From Mytilus galloprovincialis (Eukaryota; Mollusca; Bivalvia; Mytilida; Mytilidae): a DNA stretch of 64,000 nucleotides. Position 1 is the first letter of the stretch; the number at the start of each line of letters is the position of its first letter. This document shows, in pieces, positions 2,421-54,914 of the stretch. Where the stretch lies: contig NC_134843.1 of NCBI RefSeq assembly GCF_965363235.1, forward strand, positions 5,270,001-5,334,000, in the 5' to 3' direction. The position numbers and the translations under genes are program-made. The notes beneath the pieces are model-generated. The model made no database searches and was not told the DNA's origin. It saw only the letters and a list, made by a program, of their open reading frames with translations.

Positions 2421-3229
2421 TATTAAATTTGCATAAACTCAAATTGGATGAGACACAAGTCAAACAGACTTATGAAGTCTTCTTCGTGGTTCTCGTTTGA
2501 ATCATTAGCGAAAATATATGTTCAAAAGTAGATAAACATATTTTATATTGAAATGAGGAGGTGTCGAATAATTGCTTATGATACAACTATCCATCAGAGA
2601 TTAGAGAAGATGTATTCTAAAAAACAAAACAATGAACACAAATTAATAAGGCAGACAGCTACCAACGACAAACACTGACTATAGGCTCTAGAATTGAGAC
2701 ATGTATACGAAAAATGTTGTGGTTTTTAATATGTTTCTGAGCGCTAAAGGATCCGGATCTAAAATGGAACAGTGGTGTAACACCACAACATAAGAACAAA
2801 CTATATATATATACACATACACGAAAACATCAGTTGAGACAAGCTTTAATCGTCAGATCAGCACAATGCAAAAAAAAATCGTAGTTATTGAAAACTAGTT
2901 AAAATGATTGATCACTGGCCATTTTTTGTGATAGCACGGCATTCATGAAAACAACAAAACACAAAATATGTTATGTTTAGTATATCATAAAACAGGAACT
3001 ACTAGCTGTATCATTATGAGAAATGTTCAGTCTGACATGTATGACTCTTGTTTGCCGTATACAACAAATGCTGCAAATGAAAGTTTTGTGAGGAAATATT
3101 TCAAATAAATCTTGTGAAACTTTTGTCATTGTGGGTCCTTCACATATATTTAAATTGAATCTGAAACATATATTAGAAAGCTCCCTTCATGTTTAATAAG
3201 ATATTGGACGAATATTAACAATATGGTGA

Positions 3230-3800
3230 CTATTCTTTTGACATAAGATGCATCACGTGTTCTGGCATATACAATTTAAGCCTTCTCTTTCGTTAACATA
3301 ACATAAGTGTAAATAGTATAGTATAATACACAATTAGATAAAATACACTGGATCATTTGAGCAGTATCAGTCCAGTAATCAGCACTTTTGTGTTGGTATA
3401 AATTAATTATCATTGATATGGTCTATGGTCATAAATAAAAAAAAATAACTGTTTAGAAAATATGAAGTTTTCGAAGTTCTAAGGATTTTCCACCTAGGGA
3501 ATAGATTACCTTAGCTGTTTGGCAAAGATTTTCAGTACTGATTTTGCATTCTCTGTGCTATTTATAAACTTCGTACTTTATTTGTCGTTTCCAGATCTTT
3601 AAAAATCCTGTTAAAATTCCGAGAAAAAAATTACTTATTCATAAAAATGCACGTCACACAGTACATAAATATAACAGTACATATTACCACAGGTAAAGAC
3701 ATAACCGTTGAAACACAAACAGGGATCTGCATGTCACAAACAAGTATGATATATCATTTGACAGAAGCCTTTGGATAAGTTTGAAATAAAACAGGAGAGA
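3230..3800 (+). repeat. Diverged direct duplicate of 8600-8960
   Basis: Shared blocks in the same order are TTTTGACATAAGATRCATCAC then TTCTGSCATATAC (3237-3272 and 8615-8650), CGTTTCCAGATCTTT (3587-3601 and 8759-8773), and CACGTCACRCRGTACATA with ACATATTACCACA. The later copy lies just upstream of the signal-peptide exon at 9210. A repeat fragment with AGTAATCAGCACTTTTGTGTTG (about 3345-3580) sits inside this copy. Confidence 0.5.
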
Positions 3801-4480
3801 GAAAAAAAATAGTATTTTATGTGCAATACATAATGTGTATTTTGAGTTCATTTCTTTTTATGAAACTTTCATGCGACAGTACTATTTAAGCACTATGAAT
3901 ATTACTGACATAGAATACAACTTTTTCCCTGATGAGACAGGGGCATATAGATCTAGATACCGTAATGCACTATAGGCCTTATTTCAACCCCTCAAAAAAT
4001 ATAAAAAAAATAAAAAATAAAAATAAAAAACGTTAATAAGAAATAACGACAACGCATGAGATTATCATGATTTTCCCAAACTTGATAATCATTGCACTTT
4101 TCAACTATCAAATGTTTTGCATTTCCCTGAGATTATCAAGCATGTTACAAAATAGTAATAAGATCTGGAAATTTAAAAAAAATATATTTCGTAATTTCTT
4201 TTATCTAAAATAACACATTGATTTAGTGTTATAAGATTTTATAATAAAATTAACGGTTCCAATTTTCTTGCGCATTTCGACAATACATGTCTCTTCAGTG
4301 ATACTCGTGGCCAAAATATTATAATTGACGTATTACAAGACAAATATACATCATTATGCAAATAGTTTTTACTTGCTCTATTTGTTATGTTTTTTTTTCT
4401 AGTCAATATGAATAAACAGAACCTTGTTCTAGTTTTTATAATGAGGATAAACAGTGTACTTTAAACATGTCTGTTTTTTG
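3801..4480. other. AT-rich stretch, no gene seen
   Basis: No long open frame, tRNA or clear repeat is recognised; short A-rich runs occur near 4000-4030. Confidence 0.4.
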
Positions 4481-7119: not shown

Positions 7120-8498
7120 TTGAAAGGTCGCATTGCTATGGCAAGCCGTTCTCGTCAAAACTATGTTTAAACCATTTTTCGAGAAATTTACACACTGAGA
7201 ATTACAAAAAAACACACTGAGATTTAAAAACTTCAAAACACACACTGAGAATTAAAATTTACACACTGAGAATTAAAAATTACACACTGAGATTTCATAA
7301 AGACGCACTGAGATTACAAAAATGAAAAACACACACTGAGAATTGAAAATTACACACTGAGAATAGAAAATTACACACTGAGAATTGAAAATAACACACT
7401 GAGATTTCAAAAAGACACACTGAGAATAAATAAACTGAAAAACACACACTGAGAATTGTTAATTACACACTGAGATTTCAAAAATACACACTGAGATTAA
7501 TATGCAAATTACTAATGAATATTCATGAGATGAATAATTCAACAGATTAATATCTTGATCTCAAAAACTCTTGTCATTATAGTGAAATGCGATTCCTTCA
7601 ACCAATTAACATTTCGTAATAAATTTCATGACTTAACATCGCTCATATTCACAAGTTTGTTGCCTATAATTCATATCATTACTACCAGTGTATCGGGACT
7701 TAAAACCGTTTTAGCATGGGTCCCTTTTAAAAAGTCTTCCAACTGTTACCCTGATTTCGCAAGTTAATCTTTTATATTTTTGTTACGTTTATATGCTATT
7801 ATAGACACTTGAGTAAAAACTTCACTGCATTATATGTTTTTCAGTGCAAATTGTTCCAAGTTTTCTTATAATTTTAATATAATGTTTTCACCATTTGGTA
7901 TAAATATTTTGTAATAAGAATAAGCGAGTATTTTTCTTGTCCTTGTATTTCTAAAGTTTTTTTATGAATAATTTGGAACCAAATCGAAGGACTAACGAGT
8001 TCTGTCCCCTAGTTGCTTTAAGCTTGTAATAGATTCAGATTAAGTATGCTAATTAGATATGTGCGCATAAAAAGTGCGCACAAATCTCAGTGTGTCATTT
8101 TAAATTTTCAGTGTGTAATTTCAAATTCTCAGTGTGTGTTTTCAATTTATTTATTCTCAGTGTGTTTTTTTGAAATCTCAGTGTGTTATTTTCAATTCTC
8201 AGTGTGTTATTTTCAATTCTCAGTGTGTAATTTTCAATTCTCAGTGTGTGTTTTTCATTTTTGTAATCTCAGTGCGTCGTTATGAAATCTCAGTGTGTAA
8301 TTTTTAATTCTCAGTGTGTAATTTTTAATTCTCAGTGTGTGTTTTGAAGTTTTTAAATCTCAGTGTGTTTTTTTTATAATTCTCAGTGTGTAAATTTCTC
8401 GAAAAATGGTTTAAACATAGTTTTGACGAGAACGGCTTGCCATACATTGCCTAGTCAAACTTGGTATGGCAACATTTTTGCCAATATGGGACTTTCAA
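7120..8498. mobile_element. Foldback element with CACACTGAGA-rich arms
   Basis: The left arm (7120 to about 7510) and right arm (about 8045-8498) are inverted copies in register. Both start TTGAAAG, then carry GGCAAGCCGTTCTCG, AACTATGTTTAAACC and then about 14 copies of CACACTGAGA at 15-35-bp spacing. Odd units such as GACGCACTGAG fall at the same place in each arm, so the arms derive from one inverted repeat and are not two independent arrays. The ~530-bp centre contains no recognised coding sequence. The outermost parts of the arms are less similar because the right arm has an extra ~30 bp. No transposase is visible, so it would be non-autonomous. Confidence 0.85.
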
Positions 8499-45258: not shown

Positions 45259-45268
45259 ATAGGGAAGG
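45259..45268. repeat. 10-bp direct repeat (candidate target-site duplication), left
   Basis: CATAGGGAAG directly outside the left inverted repeat; the same ten bases occur at 49419-49428 outside the right one. A 9-11-bp duplication is typical of Mutator-like elements. Confidence 0.6.
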
Positions 45269-45276
45269 TATCCGGT

Positions 45277-45383
45277 CGTTCCGGCCCCAAACCGATCCGG
45301 CCCCAAGTCAATCCGGCCCCAAGTCGATCCGGCCCAAGTCGATCCGTCCCACGTCGATCCGGCCCCAAGTCGATCCGGCCCCA
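45277..45383. repeat. Left terminal array of GTCGATCCGGCCCCA units
   Basis: Seven units of about 16 bp are present, with TTCC, CAATCC and CCGTCCC variants. It faces the mirror-image array at 49312-49411. Confidence 0.9.
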
Positions 45384-46129
45384 TAATAAAATATGAATAA
45401 ACTGTATTGATTTTGGAGGAATTTGTGACACATTTCAACAGTATAAATGGAATTTTTAAAAAGTGTCCGATGATGGGTGACAAAAGGTAAGTATTGAAGT
45501 ACCAGTTAACGAACTATTTTAAATCGATACGAAAATGAGAGTTAATGTGTCGTTGGTTGTATAGCACTTTCAACATATTTTAAAATATGAAGTTATTTTC
45601 AATGATAACTTTAACTTTGAATGTCTTGGCGATTTCATTTTGTTTAGTTCATACACAGAATATCTAAATACATATTTACTGGAACCTATAAAAATTAACT
45701 AATCATAATGACTTGATGGTACTATGCGGTATTGGTTATGCTCAATGTCAAAGGCAGTACAGTAATAATTAAATATATTAAATTTATGAATTGTTCTACA
45801 TTTATTATATTTAACGATTTTGCTTGATGTTTTCTTTTTTATATAAATAATTCTTACCTCAAAAGTCAGATCTTTAGGTTCCTCTGGACGCAATTTCTCT
45901 CGAAGTCTGTTTACTGAACGCTCCACATAGCCTCGGCTGGGTAGGTTGAAGTCGTCGTCGCTTACTACTTCCATTGCTGTGTCGACGATGTCACCAGCTG
46001 ATACATACGGCTGTTCTTCTGCTGCTTTAAGAGCCTAAAATATAAACATAGATTATAATATTTACCTAAAAAAAGAACTATTAATCTGTATCTATTTTTT
46101 ATCATTCTAGTTAGGGAATGGTCATTATT

Positions 46130-46270
46130 TATCAGCTGAAGGGGTCGGTTAAAATTTTTGATATAAAATTTTATGTTGGGAACCCCCCCATTCTTTTATA
46201 AAACCACATAATGACCCCCCCCTAAGAACATAATTTCAAAAGTTTGACCCCCCCCCCCCAAAAAAAAAAA
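46130..46270. repeat. C-tract repeat inside MULE intron
   Basis: AACCCCCCCATTC, ATGACCCCCCCCTAAGAACA and TTTGACCCCCCCCCCC belong to one diverged element; the A-rich stretch after it is low-complexity. Confidence 0.45.
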
Positions 46271-46744
46271 TAAAAAAATAAAGAATTCCCAGTTGTGTTG
46301 AGGAGATGATGACCAGCTACATAGTAACCGGCTTTGAGAAGCTCTGAGTATAACAAACAGCTTGTCTTCTTGTTTTTTTTTTCAAAAAGGAATATATGAT
46401 ACATGCATGTAGAAAAATAGAAAAAAATATACAGAAAATTGTATGTTCCAATTTATTAATTTATTTTACTGCAACCTATAATTCTACAAATTTTATCAGT
46501 ATACTGGTAGATAAACTTTCAATACTGACTGTTATTTTAATCCCAATCACAGGCCCTTGTATCTGATTTTTTTTTAACCTTTGAACTTTAAAATATCTAG
46601 TTATGAATGGAGGGGGGGGGTTCAGGATTCCAATGTACAAATGATTTAGGAAGTGCAAATAAAATAACACTGATAAAATGGTTCTTGTACTTTCTTGTCC
46701 TTTCTTGATTAAATATGTAAATGATTTATTTGAGATAATGAAAT

Positions 46745-46870
46745 ATACAACCAAGCCAGGAACCTCTGGCCTTTCTTTGTTTTGTACAGATGTATGTTTT
46801 AAGAGCTTAGTGTGTTATCAATTTTCTCTGAACAAGTACACATTTTTGTTTAGGGGCCCCAGCTGAATAT
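46745..46870 (+). repeat. Penelope-like tail fragment
   Basis: AAGCCAGGAACCTCTGGCCT, TTGTTTTGTACAGATGTATG and TTTAGGGGCCCCAGCTGAAT follow the order GGAAGCCTCTGGCC… and TTTAGGGACCAGCTGAAAG of 16405-16535. Confidence 0.5.
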
Positions 46871-47182
46871 ATTTGTTTTTTTTCCAAATCATATAGTGTA
46901 TATTGTTGAGTGTGTGTGAATACCATGGTGCCCATCCCATCAAGTTTTTTTGTTATTAAGGTCTGAAATATGGATAGGATATCTGAGAATGGATAAAATT
47001 TACAGAAAAATGGACCAAATATGAATAAAAGGAGAAAAGGGCAAAAAATACTAACGAATAGAAAAATATTACCTTAATAAAAATTAAAGAATACAGAAGG
47101 GATATACCTATAAATCGAGATCTATCATCTTTTATTCTTATTTGATATCTTTGTAATAATTTCATAAAATAAGTATACGTAT

Positions 47183-47612
47183 TACCACGTGACTAACTCG
47201 AATAATTCAAGCCCTTTCCGTGTCCGATTTTCTCCCACACGAGGGCTTGAACTCCTTGTGATCATTGGCCGCGTCGCCTGCTCTCTGTGAGAGAGAGCCA
47301 ATCAGCGGCGATCAGGATATGAGTCTGCGCAACTCTCTTGAAATTGTCTTACCAAACACGTGTGTTCAATTAACACAAATCCGAAAATAATTAATTAACA
47401 TCAATTAACATCAGTTTACATCATTTATCATCAATTAACATCCGGAACTCCTCCTTCTTTAGCTGCCAATTTAAATCAAAATTCCCATATTGCAAAGCGG
47501 TGTGAATTTTCCGGTTGACGGTCTTGATCGAGGAAGACGTTCAGGCGATAATGTAGCCTTCGTAGATCAGCGGAATATAACGACTGAATTATTCGGGTTA
47601 CCACGTGACGGA
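47183..47612. mobile_element. ~430-bp inverted-repeat element inside the MULE intron
   Basis: The left end ACCACGTGACTAACTCGAAT with AATTCA and the right end TGAATTATTCGGGTTACCAC with GTG are imperfect inverted repeats. The interior is less AT-rich (CACACGAGGGCTTGAACTCC, TGTGAGAGAGAGCCAATCAG) and has four AATTAACATC repeats near 47390-47440. The 78-codon frame at 47490-47726 runs across its edge and is not supported. Confidence 0.5.
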
Positions 47613-47937
47613 CATATAACTAACATGCATCCTTGCTTTCATCAAAATAATTATATATACACACCCATTTCATCTCAAGAATCACATCAAAATGATTTAA
47701 ACACTATCATGACTATAGAAAGTTAATTATGCATGTCCAGAAACCTTTCCAACTCACTGTTTCCTGTGGTCAAAACTAGGGGGAAACGTTTCATAGAGTT
47801 GTTAATTTATTGATTGTAAATTTACACAACTGTGATAAGGAGTGATCAGATTCAGTGCCCTTGAGAAATTAGGCATATCCTGCTGCACGGTGCTTTACAT
47901 TTTACACTATCAAAGATTTAATAAATAGATATAAAAA

Positions 47938-48015
47938 AGAAGATGTGGTATGATTGCCAATGAGACAACTATCCACAGAAGACCAAAATGACAGACATTA
48001 ACAACTATAGGTCAC
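47938..48015 (-). repeat. GCCAATGAGACAAC-type repeat end
   Basis: GAAGATGTGGTATGATTGCC, AATGAGACAACTATCCACAG and AACAACTATAGGTCACTG form a good copy of the common terminal segment. Confidence 0.75.
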
Positions 48016-49311
48016 TGTACGCCTTATTTCACAGATCGCACACTCACTTCAATTTTGTCAACATTTATATACAAGTCAGACATAAAAACCTTTATTGTGT
48101 GACCCCCCCCCCCCCCCTAGTTAAAATATTTTAGGATTCATTATCAAATAATAATAATAATTAAATTATTTCCTTGCTACATGCGATTAAATAATATTAC
48201 TAATAAAGATGTTAAAAAAAAATTTCTTTTCATGGAGAATAGTTTACTTAAATACAATATATATATTTTAGTAGTATTTTCTAATACAATTCTATTAACT
48301 TACAGCTTCTGGTTCAGGTTCAGGTGCAGCTTCAGGTTCAGCTTCAGGTTCAGGTTCTGGTTCAGGAGCTACATCTGGCTCAGCTGGCATACACTCGATG
48401 CACCTGAAGATTACATCTATTTCTGCATTTACCATGCGTCTGTATTCCAGTTGAGATACTCCTATAAATGAAATAAAGGATAATAAAAATCTGTCTTTAT
48501 AATGTAGAATGAAAATAATACAAATTCATGATGCAAAAATGTAACATAAATATTTCATGCAAACATATAATACAAATATATGATGTAAATATATGATTCA
48601 AATTTTTGAACTAATTGAACTCTTTTTCTATTCAGCTTTTTACCATTTTACACATGAAAAACACGCAAATTAACATTCTGAAATTTGAAACAAAACTATA
48701 TAGTATACTGTATAAAAACTTATATACAAAATTACAGTTTGATGATATTAAAGAAAAAAGGCAAATTAGAAACTTACCAGTATTGCATAGACGGTGTTGC
48801 CACTTTGAACATCCCTCACACTGAAGTGCATGCTGTCGAGGTCTAACAGGTTGGAGACAAACCACACAAGGAAACGCCATTGTGATATTAAAAATAAAAG
48901 CATTCTGTCTTCTCTTTTATAGATAGGATTCGGCAAATCAAACAAAATTTCTCAATTTGAGAAATTTTAAGAACTTAAAAGAAAAACAAAGTTTGTATGT
49001 ATCAGCTTGGGGATCGGCTTGTACCGTTGTGTATGTAACTATTTGTTATTACACAAGATGAAAGACTTGTTAGAATCAAAGTCAATTGAAAGAAATTGCT
49101 AATTACTGCTGATTAATGTTGATGTTTGAATTGTTTTAATTATAATTATACCCGATAATCTTGAAAACTTGTAATAAAAACATAATCAATCTAGTTGTTT
49201 TATACTCATCTGAAGATTTACAACTATTACATTATAATAAAAATCATAAACATTTTTTAATAACATCATTTATATATCTTTATTTCTGTTCCCTATAAAT
49301 ATATTTTTTAT

Positions 49312-49411
49312 TGGGGCCGGATCGACTTTACATATGGGCCGGATCGACGTGGGGCCGGATCGACGTGGGACGGATCGACTTGGGCCGGATCGACGTGGGG
49401 CCGGATCGACC
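49312..49411. repeat. Right terminal array of GTCGATCCGGCCCCA units (inverted)
   Basis: Six units occur in the orientation GGGGCCGGATCGACGT; the third-from-end GGGACGGATCGACTTG unit mirrors the CCGTCCC unit of the left array. Confidence 0.9.
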
Positions 49412-49527
49412 CGAAAGCCATAGGGAAGCCCTATACGGAACAAATCTACTGTGAAAATAAAACAATTACTGTTTAATCTTTTCCATATTGCAACAATTTG
49501 ACTTAATACAGTTTGTATAAAACATAT

Positions 49528-50328
49528 ATGTCGGTGACAAAAATATTGAAAGAAAGGAAGAAGTTTTACTCAAAAATTAGAGGTACGGCGTTAGACCGAG
49601 AAACATACCTTTTTACTGATAGTAAAGGAGTTGGATTACAAGAATTTACACCGAATTCCGTTAAAGGAAATTTCAAAGTAATATACAAAAGAGGGGCAAC
49701 CATAGAAAATAAACATCATATTGGAGACCTACTTCAAAAACTAAAATCGTCACCATCAGATAACCCAATAGTTTACATATGGTTAGGCACTTGTGAAATT
49801 ACAAGGAAAGTAAATAGAATAATAGAAACAAGAAAATACCCATACCAAAGCATAGAATTCTTTCTGACCAAATACAGAGAAGTAAAAAAACAAATTCAAG
49901 ATTTAAAACCAGGCAGCACAGTATTGTTTATAGACTGTCCATATTATTCTATAACTAGAGCAAACAATAAATATGCAATTAGAAGAGAAGGCAATGAAAG
50001 ACCGAAACCAAATAAAAAACCATCTCTAGTGATAAATAAATTTAAAAAGAACAGATTAGTACAGTTATCAACAGAAATTGACAATCAAGTATGCAATCAA
50101 GTTGATTACTACAATCGTCAGATAAAACTAATCAACAGAAATACAGCAACTCCTAGGCTATCACAAGATTTAATAATATCAAATAAATCAAAAAAGGACA
50201 GAAGGGTAAGATATAGGAAAAACTATAATCTGCTACAAGACGGTGTACATCCAACACGAACTATAGCAAAGCTATGGATTTATAAACTCATTGATCTAGC
50301 GCTAGAACTATCAGAAGATAGGTGTTAG
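49528..50328 (+). CDS. LINE ORF with SGNH/GDSL esterase-like domain (266 aa)
   Basis: Read from the first ATG (MSVTKILKERKK). SGNH blocks are visible. Block I is LFTDSKGVGL with Ser32 in the nucleophile position. A Gly block RGATIEN follows near residue 64. Block III is WLGTCEIT near residue 96, where the usual Asn is Cys. Block V is DGVHP with Asp238 and His241. The Ser-Asp-His triad is thus kept and the oxyanion Asn is changed. The region between is Lys/Asn-rich. Esterase domains occur in ORF1 of some CR1-type LINEs, where membrane or lipid contact has been suggested; the role here is unknown. The frame is intact. In-frame TTG upstream (49513) is not needed. Confidence 0.78.
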   Translation: MSVTKILKERKKFYSKIRGTALDRETYLFTDSKGVGLQEFTPNSVKGNFKVIYKRGATIENKHHIGDLLQKLKSSPSDNPIVYIWLGTCEITRKVNRIIETRKYPYQSIEFFLTKYREVKKQIQDLKPGSTVLFIDCPYYSITRANNKYAIRREGNERPKPNKKPSLVINKFKKNRLVQLSTEIDNQVCNQVDYYNRQIKLINRNTATPRLSQDLIISNKSKKDRRVRYRKNYNLLQDGVHPTRTIAKLWIYKLIDLALELSEDRC

Positions 50329-50339
50329 ACAAACTTATT

Positions 50340-50875
50340 ATAAGGAAGCCTTATTATAAGCTGAATGACTCTTATAGGGAAGCCCTAAATGAGTTGGATA
50401 TATATAGCAAATGTAACAATTTAGAATAAATAGGGAAGCCCTGTTTGTCTATATTTAGAATTCAAGGAAATAAATTATAGGGAAGCCCTATAAAATAAAC
50501 AAAGGTGACCCATACTGGAAAGAGTACAAATGAGAGTGGAAAATATTTTTTTATTTAGGATAGGGAAGCCCTATACTATAAATAAAGGTGTCCCAGTCTG
50601 GAAAAAGTACAAGTAAGAGTTGAAAATATTTAATTTAGGATAGGGAAGCCCTATACTACAAGCTCAAGGGTAAATCAATAAAGGATAACATAAGATAACA
50701 GTAATAGTTAGGGAAGCCCTACTACACATACAAGGACAGTTATTTTAATCTTAAGAGTAAGATAGAGAAGCTCTATCATACAACGAAAGCAAATAGGTAA
50801 TAATTAGATTTTTAGGGAAGCCCTAGAATCATATTATCACTGTCTCAACTAGATAATAGATAGAGAAGCTCTATC
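50340..50875 (+). promoter_or_regulatory. Array of ten AAG-triloop hairpins between LINE ORFs
   Basis: Hairpins lie at 50340-50354, 50375-50387, 50432-50442, 50475-50493, 50560-50574, 50640-50654, 50709-50721, 50761-50777, 50811-50827 and 50859-50875. The core is invariably G-AAG-C. Most stems read TAGGG/CCCTA. Others read TAAGG/CCTTA or GATAGAG/CTCTATC, with both strands of the stem changed together. The ~80-base units around 50490-50650 are also duplicated (AAAGGTGWCCCA, TGGAAARAGTACAA). One more hairpin is at 49420-49434. The array fills the untranslated stretch before the PHD ORF, so a role in translation initiation, RNA stability or protein binding is plausible but unproven. Confidence 0.85.
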
Positions 50876-50895
50876 AACTATCAAGAGAAGGCGTA

Positions 50896-51870
50896 ATGAC
50901 GAGACGTAACAGAGGTACATCAGTAGATGTAATGAACGAAGAACCATGGGAATGTAAAATCTGCTCAACAATATATAAAGACCCAAATGCTAAACTTCTA
51001 GAATGCCAGAGATGCAAGGACCACTTCTGTATCAAGTGCCTTAATAAATCAAAACCAGAATATGACCTTCTAAGCAAAACAGACTCAATGTGGTTCTGCG
51101 TCCCATGTAGGAAAACAGTAGAAGAACACATAGTTACTGATCTAAAGATAGAGGCGAGATGTAAGGAGATAATGGCAAATTATGAGCAGAGAATACAATT
51201 TTTAGAATTAGCTGTTGACACTAAATGTGACGAGACAAGAGTTAGGGAAATAGTAGAAGAATCAATAATTAAAAATAGCTGTGATAAAGAAATGATCAGA
51301 GAAATAGCTAAAGATGAAGCTACTAAAACAGAGGACGCTGTACATAAAAAAATGGAGGAAGCTGAAAATAAGGGAACAGGGCCGCAAAAGAAAGCAACAG
51401 TTACAACAGTGATAGAAGAGATGAATGAAAGAAAAGCAAGAGAGAAAAACCTGATTATATTTGGCATTACAGAAAATCAATCCGAGGTTAAACAAGAAAG
51501 AATAGACCATGATACAGAGAAAATAAATGAACTTTTTTATGATGCAAAAATACACCTGGAGGAAGGAAATATAATGAAAGCCAAAAGGCTAGGGAAGTAC
51601 GATAGTAAGAAAGATAGTAGACCCTTATTGGTTAATCTTAAAAGCATAGACTCGAAACTCACTCTATTCAAAAATATGCATTATATCAGAGGTATACCAA
51701 AATATGAGAAAGTCAACGTTAGTAATGACCTGACACAAAGTGAAAGAGAACAGGAGAAAGTACTATGGGCAGAGGCAAAAAAGCTACAAGAACAATGCAT
51801 ATCGGGGGAATACCAATACAAAGTAAGAGGACCACCCTGGGCCAGAAAAGTGATAAGAATAAAGAAGTAG
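50896..51870 (+). CDS. LINE ORF with PHD-like zinc finger and coiled coil (324 aa)
   Basis: An N-terminal zinc finger has C20, C23, C37, C40, C45, C48, C68 and C71 (CKIC, CQRC, CIKC, CVPC). The position usually held by His in a PHD finger is Cys45. Residues about 75-180 are charged and helical, suggesting a coiled coil. KNLIIFGITENQSE near residue 186 and a basic C-terminus (VRGPPWARKVIRIKK) resemble the RRM-like and C-terminal parts of CR1-type ORF1 proteins, which bind RNA. The end overlaps the next ORF by 106 bases in another frame. Start chosen at the first ATG, 21 bases after the last hairpin. Confidence 0.88.
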   Translation: MTRRNRGTSVDVMNEEPWECKICSTIYKDPNAKLLECQRCKDHFCIKCLNKSKPEYDLLSKTDSMWFCVPCRKTVEEHIVTDLKIEARCKEIMANYEQRIQFLELAVDTKCDETRVREIVEESIIKNSCDKEMIREIAKDEATKTEDAVHKKMEEAENKGTGPQKKATVTTVIEEMNERKAREKNLIIFGITENQSEVKQERIDHDTEKINELFYDAKIHLEEGNIMKAKRLGKYDSKKDSRPLLVNLKSIDSKLTLFKNMHYIRGIPKYEKVNVSNDLTQSEREQEKVLWAEAKKLQEQCISGEYQYKVRGPPWARKVIRIKK

Positions 51871-54800
51871 TGAAAAAAAGTTCAAAGGATGTAAATAAAA
51901 CTGTAAAAAATAGGGAAAAGGTTTTTAACGGCGAAAATGTAAATAGTTTTGCAGTTCTACCCAAATTGAACTGTTTTTATACAAATGCAGACCAGCTATT
52001 CAACAAATTATCCGAATTAATAGTAAGAGCAAGGGATAATAAACCAAATATAATTGGAATAACAGAAGTTAAACCAAAGGTTAATATGTACAAACCATCC
52101 AAGGCAGAATACTCATTACCAGAGGTGGGAAACTATAAAATGTATGAGAAAAATCTAGAAACGGATGAAGGAAGAGGACTACTATTATATATAGACTCAA
52201 ATCTTGAATCGACAGAAGTAAATATGGAAGCCCAATTCCAAGAAAACATATTTATTAAGATCAAACTTAACCAGAATGACAAATTATTGATAGGCCTAAT
52301 ATACAGATCACCATCTAACAACACAAAGGAATATAATGATAAACTAACGGAACTAATATCGGAAGCAACTCAGAAAGGTTTTTCGCATATACTTATTATG
52401 GGAGACTTTAATTACCCAGCAATAGATTGGGAGATATGGAACACAAAAGGAGAAAATGAAAATAGCATCGAAAACAGATTTTTAGATTCGATACAAGAAA
52501 ATTTCCTATTCCAACATACAATCAAACCAACAAGATGGAGAGGTACAGATACTCCGCATACCTTAGATTTGATATTGACGAACGAAGAAGAAATGATTAG
52601 TAATCTAGAATACATGAGCCCTCTAGGGAAAAGTGACCACTGTGTATTGTCCTTTGACTACAACTGTTATATAAACATTAAGAACAAACCAAGAATAGCT
52701 AAGCTGTATGACCATGGGAACTACCATGATTTTAAACTAGAATTGGATAAGATAAATTGGCAGGAAGAAATTAAAGATGACTTTTCTGTCGACACAAACT
52801 GGAAATACTTTTTAACCACTCTAAATGAATTAGAACAAAGATTCGTACCAACAAAAAAAATGACACAAATTGGAAAGAAGAAAAACGCTTTCCCAGTAGA
52901 CAAAAAAACCAGAGAATTAATTAAGAGGAAAAATATACTGTCAAAGAAAATTGTAACCAATCAAGACCCGGAAATTAGAGCTGAGTATAACAGAGTAAGG
53001 AATAAAACAAAATCATCAGTTAATAAACTTAAGAAGAAATTTGAGAAGGGATTATCAGAAAATGCAAAAGCAAACCCAAAAGCTATTTGGAGTTACGTAA
53101 AATCAAAGTCCAAGACAAGGGAAGGTATTGGTGATCTACACACTGATCCCGACGATACTAAATCTCCAAAAACAGATGACGATAAAGAAAAAGCGGAAAT
53201 ATTATCAGAATACTTTGCAAGTGTATTTACACAAGAACCAGATGGCGAAATCCCTGTACCAAATTCAATAAATATTGCAAATGAATTAACTGAATTAAAA
53301 ATCAACAAAGATATGATAATGAAACACTTAAAAAAGCTAAAGATTGATAAATCACCAGGTCCTGATAAATTACACCCCAGACTGCTTCGGGAAACAATGG
53401 AAAGTATAGCTGAACCCTTGAGCTTGATCTTTAACCAATCATTGAATGAAAAGACAGTACCAAAAGAATGGAAGAATGCACTTGTTAGCGCTATATTTAA
53501 AAAAGGAAACAAATCGCAAGCAAAAAATTACCGCCCAGTGAGTCTAACATCAGTTGTTTGTAAGATATTGGAGAAAATCATAAGAGAACACATAATACAG
53601 CATATGAAGCTAAACAGGTTATTCTCAAATAAGCAGTACGGTTTTATCTCGGGGAGATCAACATCATTGCAATTACTGGAGGTAATTGACAAATGGACAG
53701 AGGCTATAGACGATGGGTATGAGGTAGATTGTGTATATACAGACTTTGTGAAAGCATTTGATACAGTACCACACAAAAGGCTACTAAAGAAAATTGAAAA
53801 TTATGGAATAAAAAACCCTATACTAGATTGGATACAAGATTTTCTATCAAATAGGCAACAAAGAGTCTCAATAAATGGTGAAGCATCAGAATGGAAGGAT
53901 GTTACCTCAGGAATACCGCAAGGCTCGGTACTAGGACCACTCTTATTTGTACTCTACATCAATGACTTACCGGAAGGAGTTAACTCAGATGCTTACTTAT
54001 TTGCTGATGATACAAAAATCTTTAAAATAATAAAGGAAGACGGAGACCATGAAACATTACAAAAGGATTTAGACAAATTAGAAAAATGGAGTGATACATG
54101 GTTACTCAAGTTTCATCCAGAAAAATGTAAACATATAAACATTAGCAAAAAATCAAAGCAATATATTGAAAAATATAATCTACTAGGAAAAGAAATAAGC
54201 AGATGCAAAGAAGAGAAGGATATAGGGGTAGTCATTGATGAAGAATTATCCTTTGAAAAGCATATATGTGAGAAAGTAAATAAAGCAAATTCAATTTTTG
54301 CGGCATTAAGAAGATCATTCAAAAATCTAAATGCAGAAATCTTTATTCCATTATATAAAACACTAGTAAGAACACATCTAGATTATGCAAGTTCAGTATG
54401 GGCACCTTTTAAGAAAAAATATATCGATAAAATTGAAAGTGTACAAAAGAGAGCTACAAAACAAATACCGGGACTTAAAAACCTAAGCTACGAAGAAAGG
54501 CTAAAGAAATTAAAATTACCGACACTAGCGTACAGAAGAATAAGAGGGGACATGATTGAAACCTATAAGATCATACACAATAAATATGACCCGGAAACTA
54601 GTACTTTCCTAAAACTGATGTCGAGCACAGAGAATAGGCACAGTACTAGAACTAATAGCAGTAAAATCGTTCATCAAAGGTTTAATACTAATCTTAGGAA
54701 AAATAGTTTTACGGTGAGAATATCAAAAACCTGGAACAAACTACCAGAAAAAGTGGTTAAGGCACCGTCTGTTAATGCCTTTAAAAACAGACTTGACAAT

Positions 54801-54914
54801 CACTGGAAAAACGAGGAATTATATTATTCTGATTACCGCGCAGTTATAACCGGAAGCAGCAGTAACAGTAATAATTACGACATAATATATGAGTCTGGTG
54901 AAGAGGAGCCGTGA
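51765..54914 (+). CDS. LINE ORF2: AP endonuclease + reverse transcriptase (1049 codons)
   Basis: The endonuclease starts near residue 66 (NCFYTNADQLFNKLSEL) and shows GITEVKPK (Glu), LIGLIYRSPSNN, ILIMGDFNYPAIDW (Asp/Asn near 212), DLILTN and SDHCVLSFD (Asp-His, near 290). The reverse transcriptase has KNYRPVSLTS (near 587), YTDFVKAFDTVPHKRLL (near 660), SGIPQGSVLGPLLFVLYIND (near 716) and YLFADDTKIF (Phe-Ala-Asp-Asp, near 746). The C-terminal region includes HLDYASSVWAPF and the typical RTNSSKIVHQRFNTNLRKNS and FTVRISKTWNKLP blocks. No stop or frameshift is seen over 3.1 kb. The first ~35 codons overlap the PHD ORF, so the true translated start may lie further in, or be reached by frameshifting or reinitiation. 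Confidence 0.95.
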   Translation: MGRGKKATRTMHIGGIPIQSKRTTLGQKSDKNKEVVKKSSKDVNKTVKNREKVFNGENVNSFAVLPKLNCFYTNADQLFNKLSELIVRARDNKPNIIGITEVKPKVNMYKPSKAEYSLPEVGNYKMYEKNLETDEGRGLLLYIDSNLESTEVNMEAQFQENIFIKIKLNQNDKLLIGLIYRSPSNNTKEYNDKLTELISEATQKGFSHILIMGDFNYPAIDWEIWNTKGENENSIENRFLDSIQENFLFQHTIKPTRWRGTDTPHTLDLILTNEEEMISNLEYMSPLGKSDHCVLSFDYNCYINIKNKPRIAKLYDHGNYHDFKLELDKINWQEEIKDDFSVDTNWKYFLTTLNELEQRFVPTKKMTQIGKKKNAFPVDKKTRELIKRKNILSKKIVTNQDPEIRAEYNRVRNKTKSSVNKLKKKFEKGLSENAKANPKAIWSYVKSKSKTREGIGDLHTDPDDTKSPKTDDDKEKAEILSEYFASVFTQEPDGEIPVPNSINIANELTELKINKDMIMKHLKKLKIDKSPGPDKLHPRLLRETMESIAEPLSLIFNQSLNEKTVPKEWKNALVSAIFKKGNKSQAKNYRPVSLTSVVCKILEKIIREHIIQHMKLNRLFSNKQYGFISGRSTSLQLLEVIDKWTEAIDDGYEVDCVYTDFVKAFDTVPHKRLLKKIENYGIKNPILDWIQDFLSNRQQRVSINGEASEWKDVTSGIPQGSVLGPLLFVLYINDLPEGVNSDAYLFADDTKIFKIIKEDGDHETLQKDLDKLEKWSDTWLLKFHPEKCKHINISKKSKQYIEKYNLLGKEISRCKEEKDIGVVIDEELSFEKHICEKVNKANSIFAALRRSFKNLNAEIFIPLYKTLVRTHLDYASSVWAPFKKKYIDKIESVQKRATKQIPGLKNLSYEERLKKLKLPTLAYRRIRGDMIETYKIIHNKYDPETSTFLKLMSSTENRHSTRTNSSKIVHQRFNTNLRKNSFTVRISKTWNKLPEKVVKAPSVNAFKNRLDNHWKNEELYYSDYRAVITGSSSNSNNYDIIYESGEEEP

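Follow-up and report, generated by a model that had tools for sequence, protein, structure and literature searches.

In three sister families (A, B, and C) of a LINE in the genome of Mytilus galloprovincialis, the spacer between the first two ORFs holds 10–14 sense-strand hairpins in which the loop is nearly constant and pairing is kept, while the letters of the stems and the linkers vary. The pattern of sequence change suggests that the element depends on the shape of this RNA. The explanation that we prefer, to which we would give somewhat less than an even chance, is that the array is a candidate multivalent protein-binding platform, on which the element's own RNA-binding product would assemble the ribonucleoprotein (RNP).

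The copy from which the analysis set out lies in a 64,000-nt stretch of contig NC_134843.1 (hereafter the window, whose numbering is used throughout). Its three ORFs lie on the forward strand: a first ORF of 266 aa (49528..50328), which is SGNH/esterase-like by motif only; a second ORF of 324 aa (50896..51870), with a PHD finger, a charged stretch, and a conserved C-terminal region; and an endonuclease-reverse transcriptase ORF (51765..54914), which overlaps the second in another frame. The last combines both APE-type domains in one ORF (Pfam RVT_1, 1.2e-35; Exo_endo_phos_2, 5.9e-16). The second ORF reaches 23.7 bits against PF00628, just under the cut-off of 24, and three of five members match at E up to 1; its stretch NLIIFGI might be read as RRM-like, and neither Pfam nor PDB sequences support an RRM there. 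For the first ORF, "esterase", the label given by the earlier note, is a candidate name only: among the SGNH/GDSL blocks, the S and DGxHP-type motifs are in place (DSKG and DGxHP) and block III reads GTC, and no match of that kind was found in Pfam or PDB. Dispersed copies are represented by 50 matches on 12 contigs, several of which may belong to one copy; seven copies share a common 3' end, and 5' truncation is variable, with truncated copies seen. The element is a LINE of the APE type with dispersed copies and a shared 3' end. Its layout is CR1/L2-like, with CR1 as a candidate label only. A 3' octamer repeat is a trait of vertebrate CR1, and other CR1 members may be without it; it is absent from the seven family-A copies, which end in an AAGT-like tail.

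Ten G-AAG-C triloop hairpins, all on the forward strand, fill the 567-nt spacer (50329..50895): hairpin 1 (ATAAGGAAGCCTTAT, 50340..50354), hairpin 2 (TAGGGAAGCCCTA, 50375..50387), hairpin 3 (ATAAATAGGGAAGCCCTGTTTGT, U-G pairs included, 50426..50448), hairpin 4 (TTATAGGGAAGCCCTATAA, 50475..50493), hairpin 5 (ATAGGGAAGCCCTAT, 50560..50574), which sits inside an 83-nt partial duplication with hairpin 6 (ATAGGGAAGCCCTAT, 50640..50654), hairpin 7 (TAGGGAAGCCCTA, 50709..50721), hairpin 8 (GATAGAGAAGCTCTATC, 50761..50777), hairpin 9 (TTTTAGGGAAGCCCTAGAA, with one U-G pair, 50810..50828), and hairpin 10 (GATAGAGAAGCTCTATC, 50859..50875), which stops 20 nt short of the next ATG. One more, again ATAGGGAAGCCCTAT, lies at 49420..49434 on the same strand, and the first ORF starts about 94 nt after it. 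The earlier note had placed all of them correctly, and the U-G wobble that it suspected at 50811–50827 is indeed present in hairpin 9; the sizes that it gave, 11–19 nt, become spans of 13–23 nt when G-U pairs are included. Several hairpins reach an outer stem across a mismatch or bulge, as in CUUAU-U-AUAAGG-AAG-CCUUAU-U-AUAAG, and the hairpin consensus is YARRG-AAG-CYYUR. Dinucleotide shuffles rule out chance as the origin of the array: 500 of them yield on average 0.04 AAG-triloop hairpins with at least five Watson-Crick pairs, and the window spacer contains nine. Complementary CTT-loop hairpins with at least five such pairs are found neither in this spacer nor in three representative spacers. 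On the sense strand (z -5.2) and on the antisense strand (z -3.9) alike, the spacer folds better than each of 100 shuffles. Across the 64-kb window, a covariance model returned only these 11 hairpins at E<0.01, a result informative for its specificity only, since ten of the 34 hairpins on which the model was trained came from the window spacer. No known RNA family matches at gathering score in 49200–51000, where an Rfam scan gave a single match, outside the spacer on the opposite strand, that scores 19 bits against a gathering threshold of 54.

The hairpin at 49420 had been regarded as the 5' edge of the element, and this view had to be given up: it belongs to the 5'UTR, which a 4151-bp insert (45268–49418) splits exactly in this hairpin. 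A 10-bp direct repeat, CATAGGGAAG, is seen at both ends of the insert, and inverted arrays of GTCGATCCGGCCC-like units lie just inside them; by these features the insert looks like a DNA transposon. Elsewhere in the window, two arrays of ACACACTGAGA units (7183–7500 and 8081–8398) stand in opposite orientation about 0.6 kb apart.

The 1.385-Gb genome contains 77 matches to the 13-mer TAGGGAAGCCCTA, against 49 for a reversed control, but they are clustered. From this search space 19 places were fetched, the window's own copy being read from the window; 16 of these places together with the window make up 17 copies in three families. Family A (window, L009, L012, L017, L018, L020, L022) has 10 hairpins, or 11 in L022; family B (L010, L016, L024, L026) has 11; and family C (L013–L015, L021, L023, L025) has 13 plus one with a bulged base in L021 and L025, its other members being broken. 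Relative to A, the first ORF is 51–60% identical in the pieces from B and 42–58% in the broken pieces from C. The array is present in seven family-A copies, and B and C carry it with other stems and linkers; between the spacers of A and B, no BLAST alignment is left save around one hairpin, and yet the hairpins persist. This presence in other copies and in sister families excludes an oddity specific to one copy. The core reads GAAGC in 161 of 168 hairpins across the 17 copies, as counted among hairpins with up to one core mismatch, so that more altered cores escape the listing. The earlier statement that the loop and closing pair never change is thus true within the window, and fails for seven of the 168 (GTAGC in three, GAACC in three, GAATC in one), all in family C. 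Random loss of hairpins was also looked for: whole hairpins are absent only from broken or truncated copies, and single mismatches are seen in others, as in L020 (hairpin 3) and L022 (hairpin 5). Hairpin 6 of L021 (sense position about 1936) has an inverted loop, GCTTC for GAAGC, in a largely kept stem, which looks as if it came from a template switch within the hairpin. Single hairpins are found in the 5'UTR of families A and B as well; that of A is kept in all five other copies aligned there, and L020 is truncated 2 nt past it. L046 and L049 are remnants of arrays.

That the stems change in a compensatory manner emerges from a set of 34 hairpins (32 distinct), drawn from one copy of each family and compared with 500 shuffles, which take no account of the phylogeny of hairpins that share ancestry. 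Cells changed on both sides number 51, against 18.4 (sd 3.7) in the shuffles, and covariation scores 0.502 where the shuffles give 0.233; none of the 500 shuffles reaches either value. Pairing is kept in 89.9% of cells, against 75.0% in the shuffles (0/500) and 22–58% in slid versions. Hence, the covariation proposed earlier holds against both shuffled and slid controls, and the stem changes, among which non-compensatory ones were looked for, proved compensatory, with G-U also exceeding A-C. Two further measures are less telling in this set: pairs with changes on both sides (seven of nine) are no more frequent than in shuffles (mean 6.0, reached by 162 of 500), and further pair types (19, against 16.1) are hardly so (19 of 500). 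When all copies are considered, pairing in the 52 distinct hairpins reaches 83.7%, and none of 2000 arm swaps exceeds 75.2%. The inner pairs interchange G-C, G-U, and A-U, and the outer ones take A-U, U-A, and G-C. G-U outnumbers A-C by 26 to 7 in the 52 distinct hairpins (P 0.0013) and by 14 to 2 with one copy per family (P 0.004); as a sense A-C would be an antisense G-U, this excess points to the sense RNA as the folded molecule. Together with the AAG-only loops, it also disfavors an antisense RNA or a DNA palindrome. A plain tandem repeat is likewise rejected, as clear duplication is confined to hairpins 5 and 6 and, outside its 83 nt, the linkers of one family share at most 19–27 nt. Within families, with one comparison each, the core changed at none of 165 sites and core plus stem at 6 of 495, against 104 of 1705 linker sites (P 1e-6); that is, core and stem change about five times slower than the linkers, and five further within-family comparisons agree in direction. 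In an alignment of A to B (window and L024), the hairpins are not slower (substitution rates of 0.50 in core, 0.42 in stem, and 0.44 in linker), which we ascribe to hairpins lying out of register in saturated linkers.

Hairpins are regularly spaced in A and B. Centre-to-centre spacing averages 57.8 nt in A (CV 0.26, P 0.008) and 66.6 nt in B (CV 0.24, P 0.001), where random placement gives a CV of 0.55–0.60. In family C, the mean is 62.8 nt (CV 0.21) with the bulged hairpin, which was added to the count after the gap had been seen, and 68 nt (CV 0.44, P 0.095) without it. In all three families the array begins 11–41 nt past the first stop and stops about 15–30 nt before the next ATG, spacer length ranging from 567 to 863 nt. 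Taken in isolation, the stems average -5.7, -7.4, and -8.2 kcal/mol, a modest strength that makes the hairpins more like recognition sites than roadblocks.

Genome-wide, a letter-based pattern of two hairpins 45–75 nt apart, which may miss arrays without the searched letters, gave 77 matches, against one for a reversed control pattern. By place, 64 of these were assigned to the present LINEs, two B-like places among them being unopened; the other 13 comprise 11 overlapping matches in an 86-nt satellite on C12 and two single unopened places on C3. The satellite (C12:61229969–61230925) carries AGGGAAGCCTTTATAG in its units. No array was found in five places whose first ORF is about 30% identical (L051, L053–L055, L057), although L055 and L057 have the ORF order of the window LINE, with a short spacer (about 160 nt in L057); nor in L037 and L039, which have broken A- and C-like first ORFs; nor over 1.1 kb of sequence preceding eight PHD ORFs at 30–58% (L060–L067); nor upstream of L068, which seems truncated. 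L069, of family C, is the sole bearer of an array among the PHD-ORF places L060–L069. As distant relatives are without it, the array marks one clade within this genome, as far as searched. Isolated hairpins, one or two each, occur in L011, L019, and L027, and no relative of the three LINE proteins was found in L011 and L027. L019 (sense positions 3057–3934) contains a degraded PHD-ORF relative, 32% identical, with one GAAGC hairpin a few hundred nt upstream of it; a piece of reverse transcriptase is present in L019 as well. It is possibly an old remnant of the array; L019 is no independent proof, because it was found through the hairpin pattern. In viral contigs, the pattern matched within a repeated coding sequence of the phage-like contig L058 and at a single unannotated pair (L059), and neither an array nor a relative of the PHD ORF was found.

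The case for a protein-binding platform is built on the covariation, the folding of the sense strand, the slow cores and stems, the regular spacing, and the modest hairpin strength, and on the fact that A, B, and C are alike in array position and hairpin number and unlike in linkers. A constant loop, free stem letters, and one site per 58–67 nt would suit the docking of an RNA-binding protein that recognizes the loop together with the inner pairs. The reader would most likely be the element's own product, given the PHD ORF directly downstream, and its binding along the array could nucleate the RNP on the very RNA that encodes it, resulting in cis preference. The reading is further favored by the nearness of the mean spacing to the site of the L1 ORF1p trimer, 40–60 nt according to the available part of PMC11662928. 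A stricter version, in which the array acts like a ruler, with one hairpin per ORF1p-trimer-sized stretch, and is read by the downstream-encoded protein to package its own RNA, seems to us possible, if on the doubtful side. Several observations speak against a platform. Mammalian L1 ORF1p is a non-specific single-strand binder, as described in the accessible text of PMC11811875. No RRM is recognized in the second ORF, L055 and L057 do without an array, as do other PHD-ORF families over the 1.1 kb read upstream, two covariation measures are not clearly above shuffles, the A-to-B alignment shows no slower hairpins, and the spacing of family C is regular only when the bulged hairpin is counted. 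Finally, the place between two ORFs would suit a role in translation equally well.

Such a role is the main rival: the array might be a translation element, IRES-like, shunting, or promoting reinitiation, that carries ribosomal subunits over the spacer to the PHD ORF. We consider this rather unlikely, even though the spacers of A, B, and C are filled from near the first stop to near the next ATG and, with one copy per family, the exact spacers hold only seven ATGs where 17.2 are expected (P 0.005). LINEs also provide precedents for unusual inter-ORF initiation, in SART1 and L1, in the portion of PMC5972666 that was available; the reinitiation sites reported there are, however, nearby (some viruses tolerate up to 29 nt, and the L1 spacer measures 63 nt), against 567–863 nt here. 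Moreover, L057, which is identical in ORF order, has no array and a spacer of about 160 nt, the 5'UTRs of A and B have single hairpins too, and four, one, and two ATGs are left in the three spacers. Host proteins that read constant-loop hairpins are known, and the element might have hijacked one that acts in export, stability, or localization. The same covariation and pairing would serve a host reader as they serve the platform. Nevertheless, outside these LINEs the two-hairpin pattern occurs only in the 86-nt satellite and two single places, in a search that is blind to host targets with one hairpin, and we judge a host reader to be quite unlikely.

Two alternatives remain. Hairpins that act not by binding a protein but in reverse transcription or recombination, through pausing or template switching, would fit the damaged copies whose breaks tend to lie at hairpins (L013, L014, L015, L023, L046, L049, L069, L020): seven of nine breakpoints are at most 2 nt from a hairpin, a distance within which 0.38 of the array lies (P 0.019), in a count from which two equally close cases, the end of L020 in the 5'UTR and L014's second start, were omitted. 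L046, moreover, joins hairpin 1 to hairpin 3, and one loop is inverted in L021. Yet the events are few and were hand-picked from BLAST ends, breakage looks like a cost, and the constant loop is left unexplained, so that copying is a very improbable purpose of the array; the pattern suggests that copying, too, is hampered by the hairpins, probably as a by-product. Least credible of all, and scarcely likely, is a palindromic site at the DNA level or an ancient tandem repeat with no function as RNA. Palindromic stems, the duplication that holds hairpins 5 and 6 in family A, and an antisense strand that also folds better than shuffles would agree with it, but uniform loop orientation, the excess of G-U over A-C, covarying half-sites, and otherwise unrelated linkers are all at odds with such an origin.

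Parallels to the parts of this element are found in several known systems. In the Jockey superfamily, CR1/L2-type LINEs likewise have a PHD finger in the ORF preceding the APE-RT ORF, and differ in that the esterase-like and PHD proteins are here two separate ORFs with the hairpin array between them. Esterase-type ORF1s are known in CR1 and RTEX (PMC3905857) and in L2 (PMC4120745); in the accessible portions of these papers, the former assigns them to chordates, cnidarians, and sponges and the latter only to vertebrate CR1 and L2 groups. Neither "hairpin" nor "stem" appears as a word in the main text of PMC4120745. GDSL/SGNH-like ORFs of LTR and non-LTR elements, including bdelloid LTR elements and PLEs, are covered by the available part of PMC5408684, whose main text is without the word hairpin; in the bdelloid LTR elements and PLEs the esterase is an additional ORF3, whereas here an esterase-like ORF comes first. 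As in those retroelements, an SGNH-type ORF resembling the first ORF of the window LINE also precedes a zinc-knuckle gag-like ORF in this genome (L051, L053, L054), and in L055 and L057 it precedes a PHD-like ORF; it may be one module used in LTR-type and LINE-type elements. An esterase-like ORF parted from a PHD ORF by a hairpin array does not figure in the accessible parts of PMC4120745, PMC3905857, PMC5408684, and PMC10294476. The inter-ORF signals of SART1 and mammalian L1 are likewise RNA features around a two-ORF junction, but consist, in the available portion of PMC5972666, of an overlapping stop-start or a 63-nt spacer with no array of like hairpins. Among the matches listed from the open-licence literature, there is no such hairpin array of a LINE. 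Arrays of constant-loop hairpins read by one protein are found in the bacterial CsrB/CsrA system and in phage packaging signals. These work alike, with many hairpins, a constant loop, free stem letters, and multivalent binding; they are, however, bacterial or viral and not homologous to the LINE array, whose reader is putative.

If the ruler-like reading is true, the array would provide a non-LTR retrotransposon with a sequence-specific signal for packaging, one that acts as a determinant of its cis preference. More generally, it bears both on how a LINE protein finds its own RNA and on how the internal ORFs of animal LINEs are translated. As the array is compact, with its shape conserved in three sister families of one genome and a simple consensus, either function could be tested with short RNAs.
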